From IMG/VR virus record IMGVR_UViG_3300036766_000371, positions 1 to 42,554 of that record: a DNA stretch of 42,554 nucleotides; one strand, written 5' to 3'. Source of the DNA: a virus. Position numbers and translations under genes: made by a program. The notes beneath the pieces are model-generated. The model did not search any database, was not told the origin of the DNA, and saw only the letters and a program-made list of their open reading frames with translations. How positions within the stretch are numbered: the first letter of the stretch is position 1; each line of letters begins with the position of its first letter. Shown here in pieces: positions 10,329 through 28,608 of the stretch.

Positions 10329-10652
10329 ATGGAGATTTGGGCGTTGTTGGTGAGCGCAGGTTTGTACGCGGCGGCCACGAGTTTTGACGTGGAAGCCACA
10401 ACTCGAGGATTGCAGTTGGGTTTGGCGGAAGAGGGCAACCCGATCATCCGCAAACTGTTCGGCCCGCGACCGGCGCGGTTCGACCTCTACCTGTATGAAT
10501 GGACCTTCTTCGTACTCGGCGTGTTCCTGTACCTGCTGGCGATGCACTTCGGGTCATGGAAGTTCGAGGCGCTGATCTGGGGCGGGTTGTTCGGTGCAAG
10601 CGTGGGGCACGTCCGGGGAGGATTGGCGTGGCACAAACTCTCGAGCCGTTAG
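10329..10652 (+). CDS. Membrane protein, 107 aa
   Basis: Three or four hydrophobic segments are visible: IWALLVSAGLYAAATSFDVE, LYEWTFFVLGVFLYLLAMHF and ALIWGGLFGASVG. The early motif D..AT...L..G..E.NP resembles small membrane proteins of the DUF5658 type; this is a weak match from memory. It lies directly before the terminase, an uncommon position for a membrane protein. It may act at lysis, or in exclusion at the host membrane. Confidence 0.55.
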   Translation: MEIWALLVSAGLYAAATSFDVEATTRGLQLGLAEEGNPIIRKLFGPRPARFDLYLYEWTFFVLGVFLYLLAMHFGSWKFEALIWGGLFGASVGHVRGGLAWHKLSSR

Positions 10653-10677
10653 CTCACATTGCACCGAACGAGGCGGG

Positions 10678-12270
10678 ATGACCGAGGAGCGACTCAACAA
10701 AACTCAGCAGCGTAATAAGTGTAGGTTCGACCCCGTATACCTGTCTAAGGCCCTCGGATATAACTTCCATGAGGTATCACATGGATTGGAGCTACTACGC
10801 AGCGTAGCACCCGACATCCTTGAATCGGACAAATTCGGCACCGCCGTCCCGCTGTTTGAGCTATCTGAAATAAAGAATCGGTTGGTGCTCTGGGCACGCG
10901 GGCATTATAAGACTTCTGCTATAGTCCTTCGGATCGTTCAATTTGTTCTCGCCTATCCCGACATCCGCATTCTACTGATGCAATCCACGGTGAAGAACTC
11001 CCGCGGGTTGCTTCGCGAAGTGAAGTCTCACTTCAACGGGCAGAATCAGATGTCGAAGCTGCCCATTCTGTTCCCCGAGTTTTGCAACACCGAGACTCGC
11101 ATGGGAACCGCGGAAGGCTTCGTGTCTCCCGCTCGTAAGCGCACGCACTTGAAAGAGTGGACGGTCGGCATCGCATCCCCCAAGTCCGTGAAGACTGGAC
11201 AGCATTTTGATTTCATGTGCGCCGATGACCTCGTATCAGATCAGAACTTCCGGTCGAAAGAGCAGCAAGAAAAAACCATTGAAGATTTTCAGAACTACAC
11301 GCCCCTTATCGAGCCGGGGGGTTTCAAAACAGTTACAGGAACAAGGTATACTTTCGCTGATTTGTACGGACATCTCATACGAGGGGATGCCGAGCGGCGG
11401 GAGTGGGACATCAGCATCCGAACTTGCTGGCGAGACGGCCTCCGCGCCAACGGCGTCCTCTTCCCCCAAGTCAAGACCGATGATGGGCGCACGATAGGCT
11501 TCACGCCGGAACTCCTTGACAAGATTTTCAAGGATGACCCCGGAATCTTCTCGTGCCAGTACCTCAACCAGCCCCTTCTAGCCGGCACTCAGCTTTTCAC
11601 CGAGCCGCTACTGATGGGTGCTTGCAAGATATACGCGCCCGCGCAATACGAACTTCTCGGGCCGGCAACCCTCTTCCTGGACCTTGCCGCCTCGAGGCGC
11701 GCCGAGTCCGACCACAGCGTAGTCCTCTGCGGGCGTCTGGACAGCGCGGGGCAGATGTACGCTTGTGACCTGCGTTCCGGCCACTACTCCCCGCTCCAAC
11801 TGGCGCACACCACCCTTGAAATGGCGCTGATTCACAAGCCCCAGACCGTGCAAATAGAAGGCACGGCAGCCGGCAACTACTTTATCGAGTACCTGCGGAT
11901 GATCGCGCAGTCCAAAGGCATCGTCCTCCAGATCATGCCGATGAAGGTCTCTAACACCAAGGACGCGAAGCATATCCGAATCGCCGCCATAGAGGGCGTC
12001 ATCCGGCAGCGGCGACTGTTCTTCCTGACCGGCCTCCCCCGATGGGAAGAGATAGTCGAGCAGTTCACGACCTTCCCCCGCGGGCGCCACGACGACGAAA
12101 TCGACACCATCTCCCTGATGGTCCAGTTCTACACGCAGAACGCGGGCGCTTTCACCATACGCCCGGTTCAAAGTTTCATGCAGTTCATCACGCGCACCGA
12201 GCCCACGCTGATGACGGAGTCGTTCAAAGAAGTTGACGACATGGAGTCTGTCGGCGGCTTCCTCTCGTAA
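10678..12270 (+). CDS. terL: Terminase large subunit, 530 aa
   Basis: The ATPase domain shows a Walker A variant ARGHYKTS (73-80) and Walker B FDFMCADD (177-184), followed by a VTGTRYTFADLY segment. The C-terminal RNase H-like nuclease shows LFLDLAASRRAESDH, VQIEGTAAGNYF and GRHDDEIDT with its acidic residues. The enzyme cuts the concatemer and pumps DNA into the prohead through the portal encoded next. Length is normal. ATG 10678 has GAGGCGGG upstream; the longer frame to 10594 overlaps the previous gene and is unlikely. No small subunit is recognised nearby. Confidence 0.92.
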   Translation: MTEERLNKTQQRNKCRFDPVYLSKALGYNFHEVSHGLELLRSVAPDILESDKFGTAVPLFELSEIKNRLVLWARGHYKTSAIVLRIVQFVLAYPDIRILLMQSTVKNSRGLLREVKSHFNGQNQMSKLPILFPEFCNTETRMGTAEGFVSPARKRTHLKEWTVGIASPKSVKTGQHFDFMCADDLVSDQNFRSKEQQEKTIEDFQNYTPLIEPGGFKTVTGTRYTFADLYGHLIRGDAERREWDISIRTCWRDGLRANGVLFPQVKTDDGRTIGFTPELLDKIFKDDPGIFSCQYLNQPLLAGTQLFTEPLLMGACKIYAPAQYELLGPATLFLDLAASRRAESDHSVVLCGRLDSAGQMYACDLRSGHYSPLQLAHTTLEMALIHKPQTVQIEGTAAGNYFIEYLRMIAQSKGIVLQIMPMKVSNTKDAKHIRIAAIEGVIRQRRLFFLTGLPRWEEIVEQFTTFPRGRHDDEIDTISLMVQFYTQNAGAFTIRPVQSFMQFITRTEPTLMTESFKEVDDMESVGGFLS

Positions 12271-12280
12271 GGAATTTCTA

Positions 12281-14242
12281 ATGTCTGGATTCATCGACCT
12301 TCCGCAAGCACAAATCTCCGCGCTGGCGCAGGACCAGATCACCGCCGCCGAAGTTACCAAGGCCGTCATCTCCGACGAGACCGCCTTGAAGATCGTAACG
12401 CAGGATGTAGCTATCGCGGAGGCGTATCGGATTCAGAAAAGGCGTCCGCAAGCGTGGACTAGCGCGGACAATCTGTATGCGGCGTCTATCGTCGCAAAGA
12501 ACTGGCCGGGGACGGACATCCCCATGTCCAACCTGTCCATGCCTGTCGTGTTGGATGCGGTGGAAAAGATCATGCCGGTGGTCTTCGCTTCCTTCTTCTC
12601 CGACAAGACCCCCTTCCTACTCACCCCCACGGGGAAAACCACCCCCGAGGTCGCCCGCGCTCAAACCTCCCTCTTGAAATGGGCTATCAAGATGTCCGGG
12701 TTCAAAGAAGGAATCCGGCAGTGCATGAAAGGATGGATGCTGTACGGAACGGGAGTCGCAAAGTGGGGTTGGAAGACCTCGGAAGTGCGGTCCCGCAAGT
12801 ACCAGTTGGACCCCGAGACGAAGAAAGTCGGTCGCAAGCCGGAAGATGCCCAGGAAGTTAGTCATCCCACCTTCGAGAATGTGGAGTTGCCTACGGTCCT
12901 GTTCGATTCCGTCCTCCGGGAGCAAGACTGCCGGAAGGGAAAGTTCGTAGTTGGGCAATATTTCATCACCGCCTCTGGCCTCGAAGACCTCCGCAACGAC
13001 CCGGCCTACAAAAACATCCCCACCCTCGGGCAGCTGGCCGAAATCCTCGCGGAAAAAGGCGAGCCCGCAGTCGATTCCTTCAACTCCTCCAAGCTCCAGA
13101 ACATCCGAGACCTCCAGGCCGCCCCGGAGACGGCGCAATCCTCCTCAAACCCGTTGGAGCAGCCCCTGGAGATTCTCGAATACGTCACCGAGGACTACAT
13201 CTTCTGCGTCCTACAGCGGAAGATCGTAATCCGCAACGAAAGCAACGACCTGGACAAGATGAACTATCTGTCCGCGGCTTTCATTGACGTTCCGGGCTCC
13301 GCCTACGGCTTCGGAATCGCAAAGCTCCTCTCGGGAGAGCAGAAATTCCAGACCGGCGTCCAAAACGCCTGGATCAACCAACTCACTCTGCAACTGAACC
13401 CCTCCTACCAGTTGAAGAAGGGTATGGGGCCGGGAACGCAGAATATCAAGCTGTCCCCCGGGAAGATTGTCAACGAGTCTGGCGACCTAGTGCCGCTCGC
13501 AACAGTTTCCGTTACGCAGGAAGCTATGGGAGCTATCCAGGGCTCCGAACTGCGTTCGGACAGGCGTGTGGGCGCCAATAGCGCCGACTCCATGCCCACC
13601 CAAGCTCTTAGAACGAGCGCAGGCGTGCAAGCCTTCAACAGCGGCACGGTGGATCGGCTTCAATACGAGATCGGAATCTTCGCGGACCTGATCTACGAGC
13701 CAGCCCTTGAGGCCTTCCTCGAAATCTGCAAAGACAAGCTGCAACCCGAAGAAATTCAGGCCATCCTGTCCGAACAGGACGGCAAAGCCTACGAAGGCGA
13801 CCCGATGGACCTATACAACGGCACGTGTTGCGTGGAAGTTCTCTCCTCCACAAAACTCGCCGCCCGCCGCGCAGCCGCGCAACTGGTCCCCCTTCTGATG
13901 CAGCTCGTTTCCTCCGCCCCGGTGCAAGATTCCCTGACTTCTCAGGGCAAAAAGTTCGACTACGCGGAGTTCATCGAACAGGCAATCGAGCTGGCCGGGT
14001 GGGATTGCGACCAGTTGATCGTGGACGCGACCCCGGAAGAAATTCAGCGTGCGATGGCGATGCAGCCAGGAGCGCAGAAGGCCGCAGCCGACCAAGCCGG
14101 CCTAGCCGTCCAACACCAGTACGACCTGGAAAGTATCCAGGCGCAGGGCGAAGCGAGAGCGGGAGTACAGGTTGTCCGGCATCTTCTCACGGAGAGCGGC
14201 AAGGACGCACTGTCCGCCGTCCCGGAAACCTTGAAGGGGTAA
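12281..14242 (+). CDS. Portal (head-tail connector) protein, 653 aa
   Basis: The size, the position right after TerL, and segments such as FKEGIRQCMKGWMLYGTGVA and IDVPGSAYGFGIAKLLSGEQ identify a podovirus-type portal. Twelve copies form the ring through which DNA enters and leaves. The C-terminal part (from about residue 590) is Gln/Ala-rich and helical (QRAMAMQPGAQKAAADQAGL), as in portal barrel regions. ATG 12281 has AAGGAA upstream. It is followed by a small gene with a one-base gap. Confidence 0.88.
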   Translation: MSGFIDLPQAQISALAQDQITAAEVTKAVISDETALKIVTQDVAIAEAYRIQKRRPQAWTSADNLYAASIVAKNWPGTDIPMSNLSMPVVLDAVEKIMPVVFASFFSDKTPFLLTPTGKTTPEVARAQTSLLKWAIKMSGFKEGIRQCMKGWMLYGTGVAKWGWKTSEVRSRKYQLDPETKKVGRKPEDAQEVSHPTFENVELPTVLFDSVLREQDCRKGKFVVGQYFITASGLEDLRNDPAYKNIPTLGQLAEILAEKGEPAVDSFNSSKLQNIRDLQAAPETAQSSSNPLEQPLEILEYVTEDYIFCVLQRKIVIRNESNDLDKMNYLSAAFIDVPGSAYGFGIAKLLSGEQKFQTGVQNAWINQLTLQLNPSYQLKKGMGPGTQNIKLSPGKIVNESGDLVPLATVSVTQEAMGAIQGSELRSDRRVGANSADSMPTQALRTSAGVQAFNSGTVDRLQYEIGIFADLIYEPALEAFLEICKDKLQPEEIQAILSEQDGKAYEGDPMDLYNGTCCVEVLSSTKLAARRAAAQLVPLLMQLVSSAPVQDSLTSQGKKFDYAEFIEQAIELAGWDCDQLIVDATPEEIQRAMAMQPGAQKAAADQAGLAVQHQYDLESIQAQGEARAGVQVVRHLLTESGKDALSAVPETLKG

Positions 14243-15586: not shown

Positions 15587-16573
15587 ATGGCTCTTCCCAC
15601 AGTCGCATCCGTTACCAGCGCCGTTACCAGTTTCCCGAGCGTATTTTATGATCGCGTAGCGGTGCAGGAACTCCAGAACAACCTCCACCTGTACGATTGC
15701 ATTGACCGCAAGCCCATGCCCGAGAAGTCCGGCGTGGCGATGCAAATCTTCGGGTATACCAAGCTGGCCGCGAACACCGTGGCCGCGACCGACGGCACGC
15801 CCCAGGCTGCCGGCGTCGCGCTAACAGCTTCCACCGGCACCATCACCCTCTCGCAGTACGTCGACTACGTCACGTACTCCGACAAAGTCATCCTGACGGG
15901 CATCAGCCCGATTGTTCAGGAAGGCTCTGAGCTTCTGGGGTATCGTGGCGCACTCACGGTGGACACCGTCATCAGCACTGCGGTCGACGCCGCGGCCACT
16001 GCGGACGCAACCACCAAGATCGACCTCGCGCACACGGCCTTCATGACCGCCGCGATTGCCCGCAAGGCTGCCATGCAGCTTCGCTCTGTCGACGGTAAAC
16101 CCCGCGAGAACGGATTGTTCGCGGCGGTGATTTACTCGCTGATGGCGTTCGATCTCATCAATGACAGCGCAGCCGGCGGCTTCATCGACCTGATGAAGTA
16201 CACCGACAGCAACGCCAAACAGCTTCAGACCGGCGTCAATCCGGCCTCTCAGGTTGTGGCGACGGTGGGCGGGATTCAGTTTGTCGAATCCAACAGCCTG
16301 CCGGTGATCGCTAATTTCGCCTCCACGGGCGTTAACGGCTATCGCGCTTACGTGTTCGCGAAGAACGCTTTCTTCCAGGCGTCGTTGGGCAAAACCCAAG
16401 TCGGCTCGAAGAACTTCAGCGTGGAACAGAAGATGTTCGACGGGACCAACTCTTTGGACCCCGCCGGCGTCATCCGTGCCGCGTCTGTCTACAGCTTTTT
16501 CTACGGTATCGCCAAGCGCCCCCAGGGCGTGAACGTATTCCGTAGAATAACCTCTGAGTCAAGTATCGGATAA
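15587..16573 (+). CDS. Major capsid protein, N4 gp56 family, 328 aa
   Basis: The start (VFYDRVAVQELQNNLHLYDC), the segment LSQYVDYVTYSDKVILTGIS and the end GVIRAASVYSFFYGIAKRPQ fit the N4-gp56 family of HK97-fold capsid proteins. It forms the icosahedral shell with help from the scaffold encoded before it. The length is slightly below the larger family members. ATG 15587 lies after a long structured leader, which may allow extra-high expression. A strong hairpin follows the stop. Confidence 0.85.
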   Translation: MALPTVASVTSAVTSFPSVFYDRVAVQELQNNLHLYDCIDRKPMPEKSGVAMQIFGYTKLAANTVAATDGTPQAAGVALTASTGTITLSQYVDYVTYSDKVILTGISPIVQEGSELLGYRGALTVDTVISTAVDAAATADATTKIDLAHTAFMTAAIARKAAMQLRSVDGKPRENGLFAAVIYSLMAFDLINDSAAGGFIDLMKYTDSNAKQLQTGVNPASQVVATVGGIQFVESNSLPVIANFASTGVNGYRAYVFAKNAFFQASLGKTQVGSKNFSVEQKMFDGTNSLDPAGVIRAASVYSFFYGIAKRPQGVNVFRRITSESSIG

Positions 16574-22301: not shown

Positions 22302-24119
22302 ATGGCGCAGCAACCGCAGCCCCTTTACGTCACGAAATGGGAGACCGGTCTGTACACCCAGCGGTCCCCGCTCGTCTCACCTACGAGCGCCCTGGGGCTG
22401 CACGTCGTTCCGCACACCGACGCGCTGATCGACGGGCTAAACATTGAACTGTCCTCGAACAACACCCTCGTCCGCCGCCCCGGCTTCACCAAGTATTGCA
22501 GCGCCGCGTTCGGGGCCGGGGACTGGCCGCTGAACTTCTTCTCGTTCCGTAACATCGCGGGCACCATCCGCCTGATGGTCGACACCCCCACCAAGGTCTA
22601 CACCTTCACGACCGGGGCCATCACGGCGGTGTTCACCAAGACCACGACCGCCCAGACCTTCTTCCAGACCGTTGCTAATATGGTGTACTTCGTCAACGGG
22701 ACGGACTTGAAGAAGTGGGACGGCACCACCGTCTCCGGTATCGGCATAGCGGCTCCCGCCACTGCCCCGACCATTACCCCCGCCGCGGGCTCTCTCAGCC
22801 CCACCTCCGGCTACCGGTACGTGTACGCCTACAAGAACAGTTCGACCGGGCATGTCGGCACGTCGAGCCCCGTGTCCGCCAGCACCGGCCCTCAGACCTC
22901 GAAGCAGTTTGGCGTGGGTTACACGGCCAGCGCCGACGCCCAGGTTGACAAGATCAACATCTTCCGCACGCTCGACGGCGGGTCGATCTACTACTTCCTC
23001 ATTGAAGTCGCGAACGCCACTTCCTCTTACACCGACACCACAACCGACGCGAACCTTAATACGGCCATCAGCGCGCCTATCAACCACGCGAACGATCCCC
23101 TCTTAGCGGGCGCAAGCAACCTGGTCTTTCACTTGGGCCGGCTGTTCGCAGCCATCAACAACAAGGTGTACTTCGCCGGCGGCGGCGACACCCTCATCGG
23201 CGTCCCCGAGGAGGCCTGGCCCCCCGCTAATGTCTTCGTGTTCCCCGGCAAGATCAACGCGATGGCGTCCACCAGTCAGGGTTTGGTCTTGTGGACGGAC
23301 GGCGACAGCTACATCATTCGCGGGGCCGACGCATCCACCTTCTACTCGCAAAAGTGGTTGGCGAACTTCGGGGCCTCCTCACAGAACTGTGTCGCGCAAG
23401 ACGGCGACCTGGTCTTCGTCTATACCAACCAACGCCAGCTATGGGAAATTGGCGACAACCTTGAGGAGATAGGCTTCCCTATTGGGGACCAGCTACTTTC
23501 AGGGTTCGATCCCACGGTCACGCGGCTTGCCCTGCATCGTGCGGGAAGTGATGTCGGCCTTTTCATCGCCAACGGAACGACCGACGTTTACCGCTACAAC
23601 GTAGCAAAGAACTCGTGGTCGACGAAGGCGCAGCCGGTCGGCACTGGCGGCGTTCTGGCAATCGCCAGCATCGCGACTACGACCTCGGACTACCGCCTGA
23701 TGATGGGGCGGACGGTTCAGAGCCGATTCATTATGTACCGCGACGTGGCGAACTGGCAGGACGAGGCAACGAACTACTCCGGCTTTGCAACCGTTGGGAC
23801 GCTAGTATTGGCTCCGCTTGGCGGGCTCGCCGGGCTCAGCGCCATTCTGATTGAGAGAGTGGCGACGGGAACGGACATGACGGTGTCCGTGATGCTCAAC
23901 GAGATCGCCGGCTCGTTCACCACCCTGCCTAACCCCGTGTCGGACCCCCCGATGCTAACAGCCTCCACTACTATTATCGCGAAACGGCACTATTTGAAAT
24001 CCGCCGCCACGCCCCTCGCGCAGAAGCTCCGGCACCTTCAAGTCAAGATCACCCTTCCCACCGAGAACGCCAAGAACGAGATTCTCAGCGGCGCGCTACT
24101 CCCTCTTGTCGGAGCCTAA
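22302..24119 (+). CDS. Tail stabiliser/nozzle-like beta-propeller protein, 605 aa
   Basis: A long all-beta protein. The early segment YVTKWETGLYTQRSPLVSPT with NNTLVRRPGFTKYCSA is the start typical of podovirus tubular-tail B or stabiliser proteins. Repeated blades follow, such as LVFHLGRLFAAINNKVYFAG, INAMASTSQGLVLWTDGDSY and NCVAQDGDLVFVYTNQRQLW, as in a propeller. It probably plugs or extends the tail below the adaptor. The ATG has AAGGAAAA upstream and the fibre gene follows two bases after its stop. Confidence 0.75.
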   Translation: MAQQPQPLYVTKWETGLYTQRSPLVSPTSALGLHVVPHTDALIDGLNIELSSNNTLVRRPGFTKYCSAAFGAGDWPLNFFSFRNIAGTIRLMVDTPTKVYTFTTGAITAVFTKTTTAQTFFQTVANMVYFVNGTDLKKWDGTTVSGIGIAAPATAPTITPAAGSLSPTSGYRYVYAYKNSSTGHVGTSSPVSASTGPQTSKQFGVGYTASADAQVDKINIFRTLDGGSIYYFLIEVANATSSYTDTTTDANLNTAISAPINHANDPLLAGASNLVFHLGRLFAAINNKVYFAGGGDTLIGVPEEAWPPANVFVFPGKINAMASTSQGLVLWTDGDSYIIRGADASTFYSQKWLANFGASSQNCVAQDGDLVFVYTNQRQLWEIGDNLEEIGFPIGDQLLSGFDPTVTRLALHRAGSDVGLFIANGTTDVYRYNVAKNSWSTKAQPVGTGGVLAIASIATTTSDYRLMMGRTVQSRFIMYRDVANWQDEATNYSGFATVGTLVLAPLGGLAGLSAILIERVATGTDMTVSVMLNEIAGSFTTLPNPVSDPPMLTASTTIIAKRHYLKSAATPLAQKLRHLQVKITLPTENAKNEILSGALLPLVGA

Positions 24120-24120
24120 C

Positions 24121-27048
24121 ATGGACAAAGACACTACGCTGATAAACTCGACCCCGGTCCTGATCGACAAGGTCTGGCGACCCATATCCCGGCTGTCCGA
24201 CAAGAAGATTGACTCTATCTACAATCGTCTCACGCGAGTTGAGAAGAAGACCGTCGCCGCACCGGCGTCAACAGCTACGAAAGGCCCGCCTAAGTACCAG
24301 GTCACGAACCTCAGCGTCACGGAGAGCCCCCTAAAGCGGCAGGACCGGACCTTCTCAGAAGTATCAGTCAGCTTCACAAGGGACCCGAGTGACGCGGCCT
24401 TCGGCGGCGTCAAGATTTGGTTCACGGGCTACAAAGGCGTGGCGACCCCCGTTCTCGTTGCGGACGGGCGCAACTCCCCCTTGTCGTTTCTCGTCGAGAC
24501 GACTGGCGAGACCGTAGTCGTCACTTGCCAAGCCGCGGGTTCGGACGGCTCGACCATCGACTTCGCGGGGGCTCCAACCACAACCGTCCTTCTCGACGGC
24601 GTCATCAGCGCCCCGCCCGCGCCAAGCATCAGCCAGTCTCTAGTGGCAACGCCCCTTGGCTATCAGTTCGCGTTTACACAGGTCTCGGTCGGCTCGACGC
24701 AGGATGTCATAGACAGCTATCGGGTCTACAAGTTCACGGCGGACACGCCCGGCAGCGCCGCGCTTCTCAAGACGTTCAAACACGACCCGACGAGCGTCGG
24801 GGCCATCGTGGTACAGGACAATGTCGGTGGGGGCAACACCTTCTACTATTGGGTCACGTCCGTAAACACGGTCGGCCTCGAATCCGCTAAGACCGCCGCA
24901 CAAAGCGGCGCGGTCATTAGCGGCACAGCCAGTCTCGACACGGACGTGAATGATGGTACCACCTTCTTCCGCCCGGCCAATTTCGCGGGCGGATACATTG
25001 TCGTCCAAAACGGAAACTTTGAGGCATCCGCGTCACTCTTTAACGGGGCACCTCCGGGTTTTGTGGTCAACGGGCCCGCTACTCTCACTTACGAAACCGC
25101 GACCCCGCAGTCCGGGACACGCAGTCTCAAGGTAGTAACATCCCAGCAGTACGCGGGAGCTAAGAGCCCTACTCTCTGGCGAGTGACTCCGGGAGAGATC
25201 TACAAGGTATCAGGTTTTGTGAAAAGTCTCTCGGGTGCGACGGCTCTAATCCAACTGGCCTACCAAGACTCTGCCGGATTATATGTCGATGCCGCGCAGC
25301 CTTTTTCGACCTCTGCCTCTTGGGTGGCCGTGTCTGCGTCTACAGCGGTGCCGGCAGGCGCGATACAGGCCCTCTTCAACTTCGGCTCCTGGGATGTCGG
25401 GGGCGGCACGACCTACTTCGACAACCTGTCAGTCACACGGGTGCATGCGCTGGACGATGAGGTCGCGGACGGCACCACATACGGCAAGGTTGTGCAGACG
25501 GGGCTGACCTCCGGCGCGATTGACCCCTCCAGGGTGGGCGTGCTGACGAAGGGGAGCATTCCCCCCGTGTTGAATGGGGGATTCACATATACGGCTACGG
25601 CAACCTCTGTAACGTGGTCTTGGCCCGCTCAAACCGCCGTCTACCGAGCTGATGGGACCGTCACGGTCATCGGCGCGGGTACGCAGGCGGTTACCGGGTT
25701 GACCAATACGCAGGTCTACGAATTTTACCCTATCTTTGATGAGGCAACGCAAACCTTAAAGTTCTTGGGCAATACTGAGGTCACGTTCCCAAACATTGTA
25801 GGTTTCCATGGCGACGGCACAACCGGATACGCCACGGGCGATACATCCCGCTCGCAGATGGGCAGCTTCAGCGCGGAAATCTGGATTTGCGGTACGTCAA
25901 TCGCAACTCAACCCCTGTTTGACTTGTCCGCCCCGCTGGTCATCGGCACGGCGGGCAATAAGTCCTTCCACATGTATTGCACAACAACGGCGATTGTCGC
26001 CTATGCTGACCTCAACACAGCGGGCATCCACCAGATTGCTAGTGTCTCGGGGCAGAAATTAAATGATGGTGTCAATCACCATATAGTTCTCACTTGGGAC
26101 AACGCAACCTTCGTTTGTGCGGTCTACGTGGACGGCGTGCTTCAGACTAACGCGGATACTTCTGCCAACAGCATGCTGGCTCTATCCACAATGTACTGGC
26201 ACATCGGCGCGGTCAACGGCAAGACCTCATGGGGATTGACCACCAACACTTTCGCGGCCAACACGCTGTCTAATGCGGCCATTTATTCTACGGTGCTCAC
26301 CCTGGCCCAAGTTCAAACCCATTATCAGAGCGCGGTCAATATCTCGCTGACGCAGTACAACACAGCTGTGGCAGCGGACTCCCCCCTCAACTGGTGGAAG
26401 CTCAACGAGACGAGCGGCACGGCGGTCACGGATTCCGGCTCCGCTGCGAACAACGGCACCTATCGGGGCACGGTGACTCTAAACAACGCGAATCCGACAA
26501 ACGCGGCAGTCGGTTCTCCGGCCATCGCGTACAACAATAAGACTTACGCTCTGTCTGCGGCGGCGGCTAAACAAAGCCGGGTCCCCCTCTCGTCCGGGTC
26601 TATTGAGGCAACCGCTTCGGCGGGGGGCGGTGGTGGGGGCGGGGGGTCCGGTGGCGGCGGCGGGGGCGGGTGCTTCACGCCTAACACGCGGGTCCAGACC
26701 TGGCGCGGAAATATTCCGTTCTCTGAAATCGTTGAGGGCGATATGGTCCTCACGGCCAAGGGCACCTGGCTGCCCGTGGAGAACGTTCTTGTCCACGACT
26801 GGAATCAGCCAATGCTCGACATGGGCGACGGCGAAGGTATCACATACAAGCACCCCGTATGCTATGAAGGGCAGTGGCAGCCGGGAGTGAAACTTTTTGG
26901 ACACGCCCAGCCCTACGAAGGCATCGTTATGAACTTGGAAGTTAAGACAAACGAGCCGGAGGGGCTCCGCATGAGCCCCACCACGGAGCGTTCCTATACG
27001 TTGGCAAATGGCCTGACGGTCCACAATGCCGGCTTGCCCAGCAAGTAA
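24121..27048 (+). CDS. Tail fibre with LamG-like domain and C-terminal Hint domain, 975 aa
   Basis: The first 60 residues are polar with a short helix (KKIDSIYNRLTRVEKK), probably the tail-binding part. Beta modules of fibronectin/carbohydrate-binding style follow (YQVTNLSVTES; then near 300-440, EASASLFNGAPPGFVVNG). Residues about 560-740 look like a laminin-G/concanavalin sugar-binding domain (SFSAEIWI..., YWHIGAVNG). A glycine linker (about 837-850) leads to a Hint domain: Cys851 in CFTPNTRVQTW, EIVEGDMVLT, YKHPV, and the end LTVHN (His968-Asn969) followed by Ala970. Hint domains cleave their own backbone. With Ala at +1, splicing is unlikely but cleavage is possible. I start at ATG 24121; a TTG at 24106 overlaps the previous gene. 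Confidence 0.85.
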   Translation: MDKDTTLINSTPVLIDKVWRPISRLSDKKIDSIYNRLTRVEKKTVAAPASTATKGPPKYQVTNLSVTESPLKRQDRTFSEVSVSFTRDPSDAAFGGVKIWFTGYKGVATPVLVADGRNSPLSFLVETTGETVVVTCQAAGSDGSTIDFAGAPTTTVLLDGVISAPPAPSISQSLVATPLGYQFAFTQVSVGSTQDVIDSYRVYKFTADTPGSAALLKTFKHDPTSVGAIVVQDNVGGGNTFYYWVTSVNTVGLESAKTAAQSGAVISGTASLDTDVNDGTTFFRPANFAGGYIVVQNGNFEASASLFNGAPPGFVVNGPATLTYETATPQSGTRSLKVVTSQQYAGAKSPTLWRVTPGEIYKVSGFVKSLSGATALIQLAYQDSAGLYVDAAQPFSTSASWVAVSASTAVPAGAIQALFNFGSWDVGGGTTYFDNLSVTRVHALDDEVADGTTYGKVVQTGLTSGAIDPSRVGVLTKGSIPPVLNGGFTYTATATSVTWSWPAQTAVYRADGTVTVIGAGTQAVTGLTNTQVYEFYPIFDEATQTLKFLGNTEVTFPNIVGFHGDGTTGYATGDTSRSQMGSFSAEIWICGTSIATQPLFDLSAPLVIGTAGNKSFHMYCTTTAIVAYADLNTAGIHQIASVSGQKLNDGVNHHIVLTWDNATFVCAVYVDGVLQTNADTSANSMLALSTMYWHIGAVNGKTSWGLTTNTFAANTLSNAAIYSTVLTLAQVQTHYQSAVNISLTQYNTAVAADSPLNWWKLNETSGTAVTDSGSAANNGTYRGTVTLNNANPTNAAVGSPAIAYNNKTYALSAAAAKQSRVPLSSGSIEATASAGGGGGGGGSGGGGGGGCFTPNTRVQTWRGNIPFSEIVEGDMVLTAKGTWLPVENVLVHDWNQPMLDMGDGEGITYKHPVCYEGQWQPGVKLFGHAQPYEGIVMNLEVKTNEPEGLRMSPTTERSYTLANGLTVHNAGLPSK

Positions 27049-27057
27049 GGGGGAGGT

Positions 27058-27354
27058 ATGCGAAACCTGTACATCATCCCGATGGAGCACATCCCGACTG
27101 TCATCGGGTACTGCGAACTGTGGCACGGAACGGAACTCCCATCGGGGGAGGTTCTCGTTTCGGTACAGTTCACGCACGACTATGCCCAACGAGAATGGGA
27201 AAGTCTGCCATTTGTCCAGATTGTCGGTAATGAGTTTGACGGCAACCCGATTGATGACACGTCCGCCGCCAAGCTGACGGGTCACGGCATCAAAAAGGGC
27301 GATGCCGCGAAGACGGTACGGGCGGCGGCAAAGGCAAAGAACAAACTGATGTAG
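27058..27354 (+). CDS. Hypothetical protein after the fibre, 98 aa
   Basis: The product starts MRNLYIIPMEHIPTVIGYCE and is a small alpha/beta protein with a Lys/Ala-rich C-terminal tail (KTVRAAAKAKNKLM). GGGGAGG lies just before ATG 27058. Located directly after the Hint-ended fibre, it could be a fibre assembly chaperone; the sequence shows no motif to support that. Confidence 0.55.
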   Translation: MRNLYIIPMEHIPTVIGYCELWHGTELPSGEVLVSVQFTHDYAQREWESLPFVQIVGNEFDGNPIDDTSAAKLTGHGIKKGDAAKTVRAAAKAKNKLM

Positions 27355-27371: not shown

Positions 27372-27782
27372 GTGCAAAGCTCTGTAAAGACTCGTTTTGC
27401 AACGCCCGAGGACGCGCCGGCTTTCGCGGAGTGGGCCGCTTCCAACCCCGACATCCCCCGTGAGGACCTCGAGGCGCTACAACGCTGCGCCACCCCCCTG
27501 ACTCTCGTGGTCGAGATCGACGGGAAGGCAGAGATGTACATGCCTCTTCTGCCCGCCGTCACGATTGCCTTTCTAGGGTTTCGACCGGGGCAAGACTTAC
27601 GCAAGAAGGCCACGGCGCTACGCGAAATGCGTAAGGCGCTTCGGCGGTTTCAGAAACAGCTACAAATCCCGGACGCCTACGTCTTCACCAAAGCAGAGTA
27701 CCCCATGGGTAGGTGGGCCTTGCGAAACGGCTTCCGGCAGAAGTTGAACGATGGTTTCACGTTGGAGAACAATAATGTGTAG
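27372..27782 (+). CDS. GNAT acetyltransferase-like virion-assembly protein, 136 aa
   Basis: The start TRFATPEDAPAFAEWAASNP and the end YPMGRWALRNGFRQKLND have the shape of GNAT-fold proteins, as in the T7 gp13-like group needed for internal virion protein assembly. No acetyl-CoA P-loop (RxxGxG/A) is obvious, so it may be a non-enzymatic relative. It starts with GTG after GGGGAG and overlaps the next gene by eight bases. It precedes the internal virion genes, in keeping with a helper role. Confidence 0.55.
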   Translation: MQSSVKTRFATPEDAPAFAEWAASNPDIPREDLEALQRCATPLTLVVEIDGKAEMYMPLLPAVTIAFLGFRPGQDLRKKATALREMRKALRRFQKQLQIPDAYVFTKAEYPMGRWALRNGFRQKLNDGFTLENNNV

Positions 27783-28608
27783 CTCAGGCGATAAGACAGC
27801 GAAGGCATCGGAAGTAGCGCAGGCCAACTTCACCAATACTTTGCAGGCGAACTACTCGAAGCAGTTTGCGACACAGACGGCGGTTCTCGCGCACCTGACG
27901 AAGACCCTCGACCCCATGATCGACCACCCCACGGGGTACTCTCCCGAAGCCCTTGCCGCGATGCGGACATCGGCAACGGAGGGCGTGACGACCGCCTATG
28001 ACAATGCCGAGCAAGCTACCCAGAACCGGCAGTTCGCCTTGGGCGGAAGAGACCTTCCCTCCGGTGTTTCCGCAATGGAGTTGGGCTCCCTCGAGGGCGG
28101 CAAGGCATCCGACATTGCAGGATCGCAGCGGCAGATCACGCTCCAGAACGAGCAACAGAAGAACGCGAACTTTTGGAATGCCATCAACGCCGAGCAGGGC
28201 AACTCCGCGCAGATGAATCCTACCAACGCCGCCGATGCGGCAAACTCCGGCTCCAACTCCGTCGCTAACCTCTCCGGGGCGTACCAAGCCTCGAAGCAGT
28301 CTCAGTTAATGGGGGTCCTCGGTGCCGCCATCGGGGGTGCCGCTACGCTGGGCAGCGCCAAAATAACGAAGTGCTGGATTGCTGCGGAACTCTACGGGGG
28401 GTGGGACAAGCCGGAGGTTCACGCTATCCGCTCATGGCTGTCCTTCCAGGCAGAGACCCGGTGGTTCTGGTCCCTGTTCGTATCCCTGTACCTCGTCTTC
28501 GGACGCGCCGGTGCATGGACAGTGAGACATTCGCGTGCGGCCCGCTGGGTCGCCCGGAAAATCTTTGATAGCATCCTGAAAGCGGCCTATGCAACGGACC
28601 TATCTTGA
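27775..28608 (+). CDS. Internal virion protein with CWIAAELYG-type C-terminus, 277 aa
   Basis: The N-terminal two-thirds is Gln/Asn/Ala-rich and helical (FTNTLQANYSKQFATQTAVL), as in small internal virion proteins. After a Gly/Ala-rich segment (GVLGAAIGGAATLGS) comes KCWIAAELYGGW, then WLSF and FWSLFVSLYLVFGRAGAW. This Cys-aromatic module is a recurring C-terminal domain in phage and bacterial proteins, often near membranes. It probably enters the host envelope during ejection. ATG 27775 overlaps the preceding gene by eight bases. Confidence 0.65.
   Translation: MCSSGDKTAKASEVAQANFTNTLQANYSKQFATQTAVLAHLTKTLDPMIDHPTGYSPEALAAMRTSATEGVTTAYDNAEQATQNRQFALGGRDLPSGVSAMELGSLEGGKASDIAGSQRQITLQNEQQKNANFWNAINAEQGNSAQMNPTNAADAANSGSNSVANLSGAYQASKQSQLMGVLGAAIGGAATLGSAKITKCWIAAELYGGWDKPEVHAIRSWLSFQAETRWFWSLFVSLYLVFGRAGAWTVRHSRAARWVARKIFDSILKAAYATDLS

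Follow-up and report, generated by a model that had tools for sequence, protein, structure and literature searches.

A bacterial intein-like Hint domain as a candidate detachable cap at the end of a phage tail fibre

The window analysed here is a 42,554-bp IMG/VR virus record from an uncultured tailed phage. Its tail fibre-like protein ends in a Hint domain that, in the sequence features tested, resembles the bacterial intein-like (BIL) domains of type A. The reading that we favour, drawn from sequence comparison and a structural model, is that the last 119 residues before a short tail form a working domain of this type, which caps the C-terminus of an adhesive tail fibre and can detach from it; we give this reading an even chance of being right.

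The Hint fold and the logic of BIL domains are known, and some predicted viral proteins already bear the name Hint. In the open-access literature searched, no paper was found that describes Hint domains capping the C-terminus of tail fibres or phage tail proteins. The natural role of BIL domains is largely unsettled. Unrelated phage virion proteins that all end in a Hint domain, with the chemistry kept and the splicing nucleophile absent, provide a concrete and easily tested setting for this role. If active, these Hint domains would give phage fibres a second way of maturing by self-cleavage, chemically distinct from the Ser-based intramolecular chaperones, and would be compact formers of Gly thioesters, possibly useful in protein ligation.

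The fibre gene and its C-terminal domain

The features of the fibre gene and of the virion genes upstream are listed in table 1. The in-frame TTG at 24106, from which the frame is open, is an alternative start giving a protein of 980 aa; residues are numbered here from ATG 24121, which makes Cys851 the first residue of the Hint domain. Within the LamG-like region, a stretch of about 275 aa is 46–49% identical in the fibres of two relatives (L165 and L167). The preliminary description had reported a Gly-rich linker before Cys851 of a 975-residue fibre, followed by the motifs CFTPNTRVQTW, EIVEGDMV, YKHP and LTVHN, with Ala at +1 and almost no C-extein. All of this is found in the sequence: the motifs lie within 26671–27048 (tail and stop included), YKHP as part of the block-B sequence TYKHP, the numbering holds from ATG 24121, and Ala970 opens a tail that runs directly into the stop. 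A detail beyond that description is Arg957 at position F:13, where most of the family has His. The domain carries no endonuclease.

Table 1. Features of the fibre gene and of neighbouring virion genes in the window.
Feature	Position	Strand	Evidence or remark
Terminase	10594-12267		
Portal/head-tail adaptor	12233-14239		
Major head protein	15587-16570		
phrog_3287/head-closure-like gene	22302-24119		immediately precedes the fibre gene
Tail fibre-like gene, 975 aa from ATG	24121..27048	+	GGAG ribosome-binding site before ATG 24121
Carbohydrate-binding domain CBM_4_9	25003..25383	+	Pfam E=3.2e-9, above curated cut-off
LamG-like adhesin region	25801..26640	+	weak Pfam Laminin_G_2 match, E=0.06
Poly-glycine linker G8-S-G7	26623..26670	+	sequence
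Hint domain, 119 residues, Cys851-Asn969	26671..27027	+	Pfam, alignment, AlphaFold, Foldseek
Block A CFTPNTRVQT, nucleophile Cys851	26671..26700	+	Cys 19/19 in family
Block B TxxH, T908-Y-K-H911	26842..26853	+	Thr and His each 19/19 in family
Block F position 4, Asn938	26932..26934	+	Asn 16/19, Thr 3/19; Asp in most inteins (role: PMC4031507)
Block F position 13, Arg957	26989..26991	+	His in most family members (role: PMC4031507)
Block G LTVHN, penultimate His968, terminal Asn969	27013..27027	+	Asn 19/19, His 16/19
Six-residue tail AGLPSK after the Hint domain	27028..27045	+	3–7 residues in relatives (26 in L217), sequence variable

The assignment of residues 851–975 to the Hint superfamily, made from the letters alone, was examined with profiles and a structure prediction. 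The Pfam profiles agree with it in part: over the last 125 residues of the fibre, Hint_2 matches with E=5e-6 and Vint with E=6e-6, but both scores are just below the curated cut-offs (27.3 bits against 28.4 and 26.6 bits against 27, respectively). The relative L214 exceeds the Hint_2 cut-off, with 30.8 bits. Because such thresholds are set by convention, membership is judged here by fold and motifs.

The structure prediction upholds the assignment. An AlphaFold2 model built with 11 family sequences has the Hint fold, with a pLDDT of 94 and a pTM of 0.86, and its top Foldseek matches in the PDB all belong to the Hint superfamily (inteins, BIL, Vint and other Hint domains), the best being Tetrahymena BIL2, the gp41-1 intein, Vint, the NpuDnaE intein and the Clostridium BIL domain. 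The predicted Hint fold at the fibre C-terminus is therefore as good as settled. A phmmer comparison with the PDB returned chance matches only and no Hint domain. Relatives at 35–55% identity show the same architecture as the window fibre and, together with the Pfam E-values, the model confidence and the Foldseek matches, indicate that the domain is not a chance resemblance.

A family of C-terminal Hint domains in virion proteins

A single-sequence search of viral contigs found no close relatives, nor did a search with the upstream gene. Relatives were retrieved with motif-based DNA patterns (block G, Gly4-Cys-Phe and two internal motifs), supplemented by an alignment search, and an HMM pass over all frames of the fetched loci yielded the family set. 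It comprises 19 distinct C-terminal Hint domains, that of the window and about 18 further ones, all of the latter in uncultured viral contigs. The median pairwise identity is 36%; close pairs are identical in sequence, which leaves dN/dS without signal. The Hint domain is the last domain of the host protein in all 19 members, nearly always behind a Gly-rich linker, and the last Asn is followed by three to seven residues in 18 of them (26 in L217).

The host proteins fall into three or more kinds of virion protein that are not related to one another. In the window and in L165, L167, L214, L220, L222 and L224 the host is an adhesin fibre bearing LamG, PA14/GLEYA or CBM domains. J-like tail-tip proteins, recognized by Phage-tail_3 with Rcc01698_C or by PHROG matches to tail fibre, J or tail proteins, carry the domain in L201, L202, L205, L209 and L218, and head-closure-like proteins of phrog_3287 carry it in L208 and L215. 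The host in L217 is a tail protein of phrog_2048, and some hosts have no match. This recurrence at the same last position looks like the reuse of a self-processing end cap, as judged from sequence.

No family member was found in 50,697 phage records. The weak matches in named phages include inteins in polymerases, nucleotide reductases and methylases, an Rhs-type Hint domain (L227), one ORF of a Lak phage and a MuF-type minor capsid protein. The latter, gene 14 of Gordonia phage SchottB (L226:2128-5229), has an internal Hint domain that ends in VHN-C and is apparently a true intein. One scan of 84,980 bacterial and archaeal genomes gave distant Hint domains only, and no close homologue of the fibre lacking the Hint domain was found in the phage collection.

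Related arrangements were also observed. A 989-aa virion protein (L203:5406-8372, the same as L172 and L019) has two tandem C-terminal Hint domains, the first ending in AHN-KAAV and followed directly by the Cys of the second. In a second, abundant class in viral contigs (L048–L164), J-like tail-tip proteins carry the Hint domain close to their N-terminus, within a Gly-rich leader, in the layout GGGG-CFTGDT...TPNHW...VHN-AGLG or -GGGG; of its 28 distinct members, 18 have Ala at +1, nine Gly and one Lys, and none has Cys, Ser or Thr. Five contigs (L053, L079, L083, L088 and L119) code for proteins of about 370–390 aa in which a poly-Gly linker precedes a different, longer C-terminal Hint domain, with Lys at +1 and a tail of about 10–16 residues.

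Conservation of catalytic residues, the +1 position and the tail

Residue roles were assigned after PMC4031507. Cys1, the Thr and His of block B and the terminal Asn are each present in all 19 members and account for four of only seven invariant columns, at a median identity of 36%. The window fibre has the catalytic residues for an N–S acyl shift (Cys1 and the block-B Thr and His) and a terminal His-Asn, in support of the earlier reading. Some search patterns required catalytic residues, and the subsets retrieved by patterns that did not were checked separately. Members found with the pattern GDxxLTAxGTW, which requires none of the four, keep them all (L220, L222, L224, L069/L225, L214, L026/L205 and L044/L202); those found with LDMG...TxxH, which leaves the ends unspecified, keep Cys1 and His-Asn (L215, L217 and L218). 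This preservation could be due in part to constraints of the fold. The residues that would help Asn cyclisation, the penultimate His and F:13, are less strictly kept: the former is His in 16 of the 19 sequences and Ser or Thr in L220, L222 and L224.

At +1 the family has A, G, L, V, I, M, Q, F, Y or N but no C, S or T, so that the absence of a +1 nucleophile, noted at Ala970 as a BIL-like trait, is family-wide. With the pattern Y.LANG..VHN, which leaves +1 unspecified, C, S or T was found at this position in 13 of 13 internal Hint domains (some of them near-duplicates) and in none of six terminal ones.

Six adhesin-type fibres (window, L165, L167, L220, L222 and L224) have a Lys in the tail, at the very end in five of them; the adhesin-type tail of L214 and most J-like tails have none. 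Overlap with the next start codon, which would be a trivial cause of a final Lys, is absent from both the window and L198; in L225 it is the stop, not the Lys codon, that the next start overlaps (TAATATG). The tail Lys is a weak lead.

Comparison with known systems

The comparison with BIL domains, already proposed in the preliminary description, is the best that the literature offers (PMC4031507, PMC7664689). The window domain has the A-type features Cys1, block-B Thr and His, His968-Asn969 and no Cys, Ser or Thr at +1. Like the A-type domain of Clostridium thermocellum (PDB 2LWY), it has the fold (TM 0.67 of the query), Cys1, TxxH and a terminal His-Asn, has neither a +1 nucleophile nor an endonuclease, and occurs in variable host proteins. 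Unlike it, the phage domains are located at the extreme C-terminus of virion proteins, after poly-Gly and with three to seven residues past the Asn, and have Asn or Thr at F:4.

BIL2 of the Tetrahymena BUBL1 polyubiquitin locus (6Y75, 6TMM) gives the best Foldseek E-value, 1.4e-5, and acts without ordinary splicing, by acyl transfer to lysine (PMC8616854); it differs in being eukaryotic, internal between ubiquitin-like domains and regulated by zinc. The Hog-Hint domain of hedgehog (1AT0) is likewise a C-terminal processing domain; it cleaves the chain at its own Cys1, and the N-terminal product that results is modified. Its structural similarity to the fibre domain is lower (Foldseek E=6e-3), and the fibre domain lacks a sterol-recognition region and has the terminal His-Asn with which inteins cyclise their Asn. 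Vint (PF14623; 8R2C) has the highest TM-score, 0.75; it was defined in eukaryotic VWA-Vint proteins (PMC2362128), and a VWA domain was not found in the fibre. The S74-type intramolecular chaperones of phage fibres and spikes share the C-terminal position and the proposed logic of a domain that frees itself, but they have another fold and Ser-based chemistry, and none matches in the fibre.

Several class assignments were rejected: class 1 intein because of Ala at +1, the six-residue tail and the lack of a C-extein completing a host protein; hedgehog-type Hog domain because only six residues follow the Hint domain and the sterol-recognition region is absent; and B-type BIL because block G, LTVHN, is present where an intein-like block G should be absent.

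Proposed role and alternative explanations

The family is best read, on its sequence pattern, as A-type BIL-like autoprocessing domains that would cut at Gly850-Cys851 through a thioester, and the fibre domain is probably able to cut its own chain. After folding, Cys851 would attack the carbonyl of Gly850 in an N–S acyl shift aided by Thr908 and His911. Breakage of the thioester, presumably by hydrolysis as the main outcome, would free a Hint part of about 13.5 kDa and leave a mature fibre ending in poly-Gly. The AGLPSK tail would hold the Asn969 junction in place, and cyclisation of the Asn could release it. Such a cap may act during synthesis or assembly, for instance by restraining the sticky end or its trimerisation, and would be gone from the mature virion.

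A self-detaching cap fits the complete N-side chemistry, the lack of a +1 nucleophile, the flexible poly-Gly donor and the near absence of sequence after the domain; it is further supported by the non-homologous virion proteins that carry the domain last, nearly always behind a Gly-rich linker. BIL domains without a +1 nucleophile yield mostly cleaved products (PMC7664689, PMC4031507), and the removal of detachable C-terminal domains by self-cleavage is well established for phage fibres (PMC10579305, PMC7824862). Against the cap count the Asn or Thr at F:4 throughout the family, where Asp is usual in inteins, Arg at F:13 in the window and the loss of the penultimate His in L220, L222 and L224. 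The same altered support residues (F:4 Asn, F:13 Arg), with the location of receptor-binding domains at the distal tip, would suit a Hint fold kept as fibre tip or folding aid and uncleaved in the virion. This is unlikely: conservation is strongest at the residues that carry out the chemistry, while the rest varies, and a pure binder need not retain Cys1, TxxH and the terminal Asn. A mini-intein inserted near the gene end that has lost splicing is very improbable. Inteins are common in phage genes and the endonuclease is absent here, but inteins occupy conserved enzyme sites and keep C, S or T at +1, as all 13 internal Hint domains do. A single decayed insertion would not place the domain at the same end position, behind a Gly linker, on unrelated proteins, as is seen here; because of this family-wide pattern, self-processing at the fibre end is the likelier of the two.

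The other alternatives concern the fate of the thioester. The invariant Asn and the ever-present short tail of at least three residues, neither of which a pure hedgehog-like N-terminal cut needs, suggest that the C-side junction also matters; they argue against such a cut and leave room for short-peptide splicing. Asn969 would then cyclise and the freed amino group of AGLPSK would attack the N-terminal thioester, the route described for BIL splicing (PMC4031507, PMC7664689), giving a fibre that ends in poly-Gly-AGLPSK with the Hint domain excised. A-type BIL domains can splice without a +1 nucleophile (PMC4031507), but splicing is a minor product in known BIL domains, the tails are not conserved in sequence, and Arg at F:13 here and the loss of G:6 in three relatives should weaken Asn cyclisation; we regard this outcome as improbable. 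As the preliminary description had suggested, the fibre–Gly thioester might instead form a covalent link to a partner or the host, through attack by an amine of another fibre subunit, of a virion protein nearby or of the host surface. The structural proximity of BIL2, which needs no ATP to form isopeptide bonds with lysines in various substrates (PMC8616854), the suitability of flexible poly-Gly as a donor and the Lys in the six adhesin-type tails speak for it. No acceptor protein was identified, the small downstream gene (27058) is common to some members only, and the Lys pattern comes from six related sequences and is absent from L214 and most J-like tails; this fate is quite unlikely. In its general form, by analogy with the transfer by BIL2 of its N-flanking protein to lysines (PMC8616854), a mobile Hint module at the tip of the fibre would serve tailed phages as an acyl donor that activates itself, passing a poly-Gly thioester to an amine of a virion partner or the host surface in a covalent, ATP-free linkage; to this we assign a low probability.

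Genes around the fibre

The product of the gene preceding the fibre (22302-24119) is related to gp19 of Tunturiibacter phage Tunturi_3, with which synteny is weak; its PHROG family bears the Hint cap in L208 and L215, instead of the fibre. Directly 3' of the fibre gene is a small gene (27058-27354) whose orthologues, at 35–40% identity, adjoin the Hint fibre in L027/L165 and L069/L167; its product is a possible functional partner of the fibre. Further downstream, 27751-28608 codes for a virion-region protein that has no match in Pfam, NCBIfam, PHROG or the named phages. Its C-terminal domain is led by a Cys (CWIAAELYGGWDKPEV...), and the start of this domain, C-[WF]-x-A-A-x-x-[WY]-G, is conserved in the orthologues of L200 and L220.
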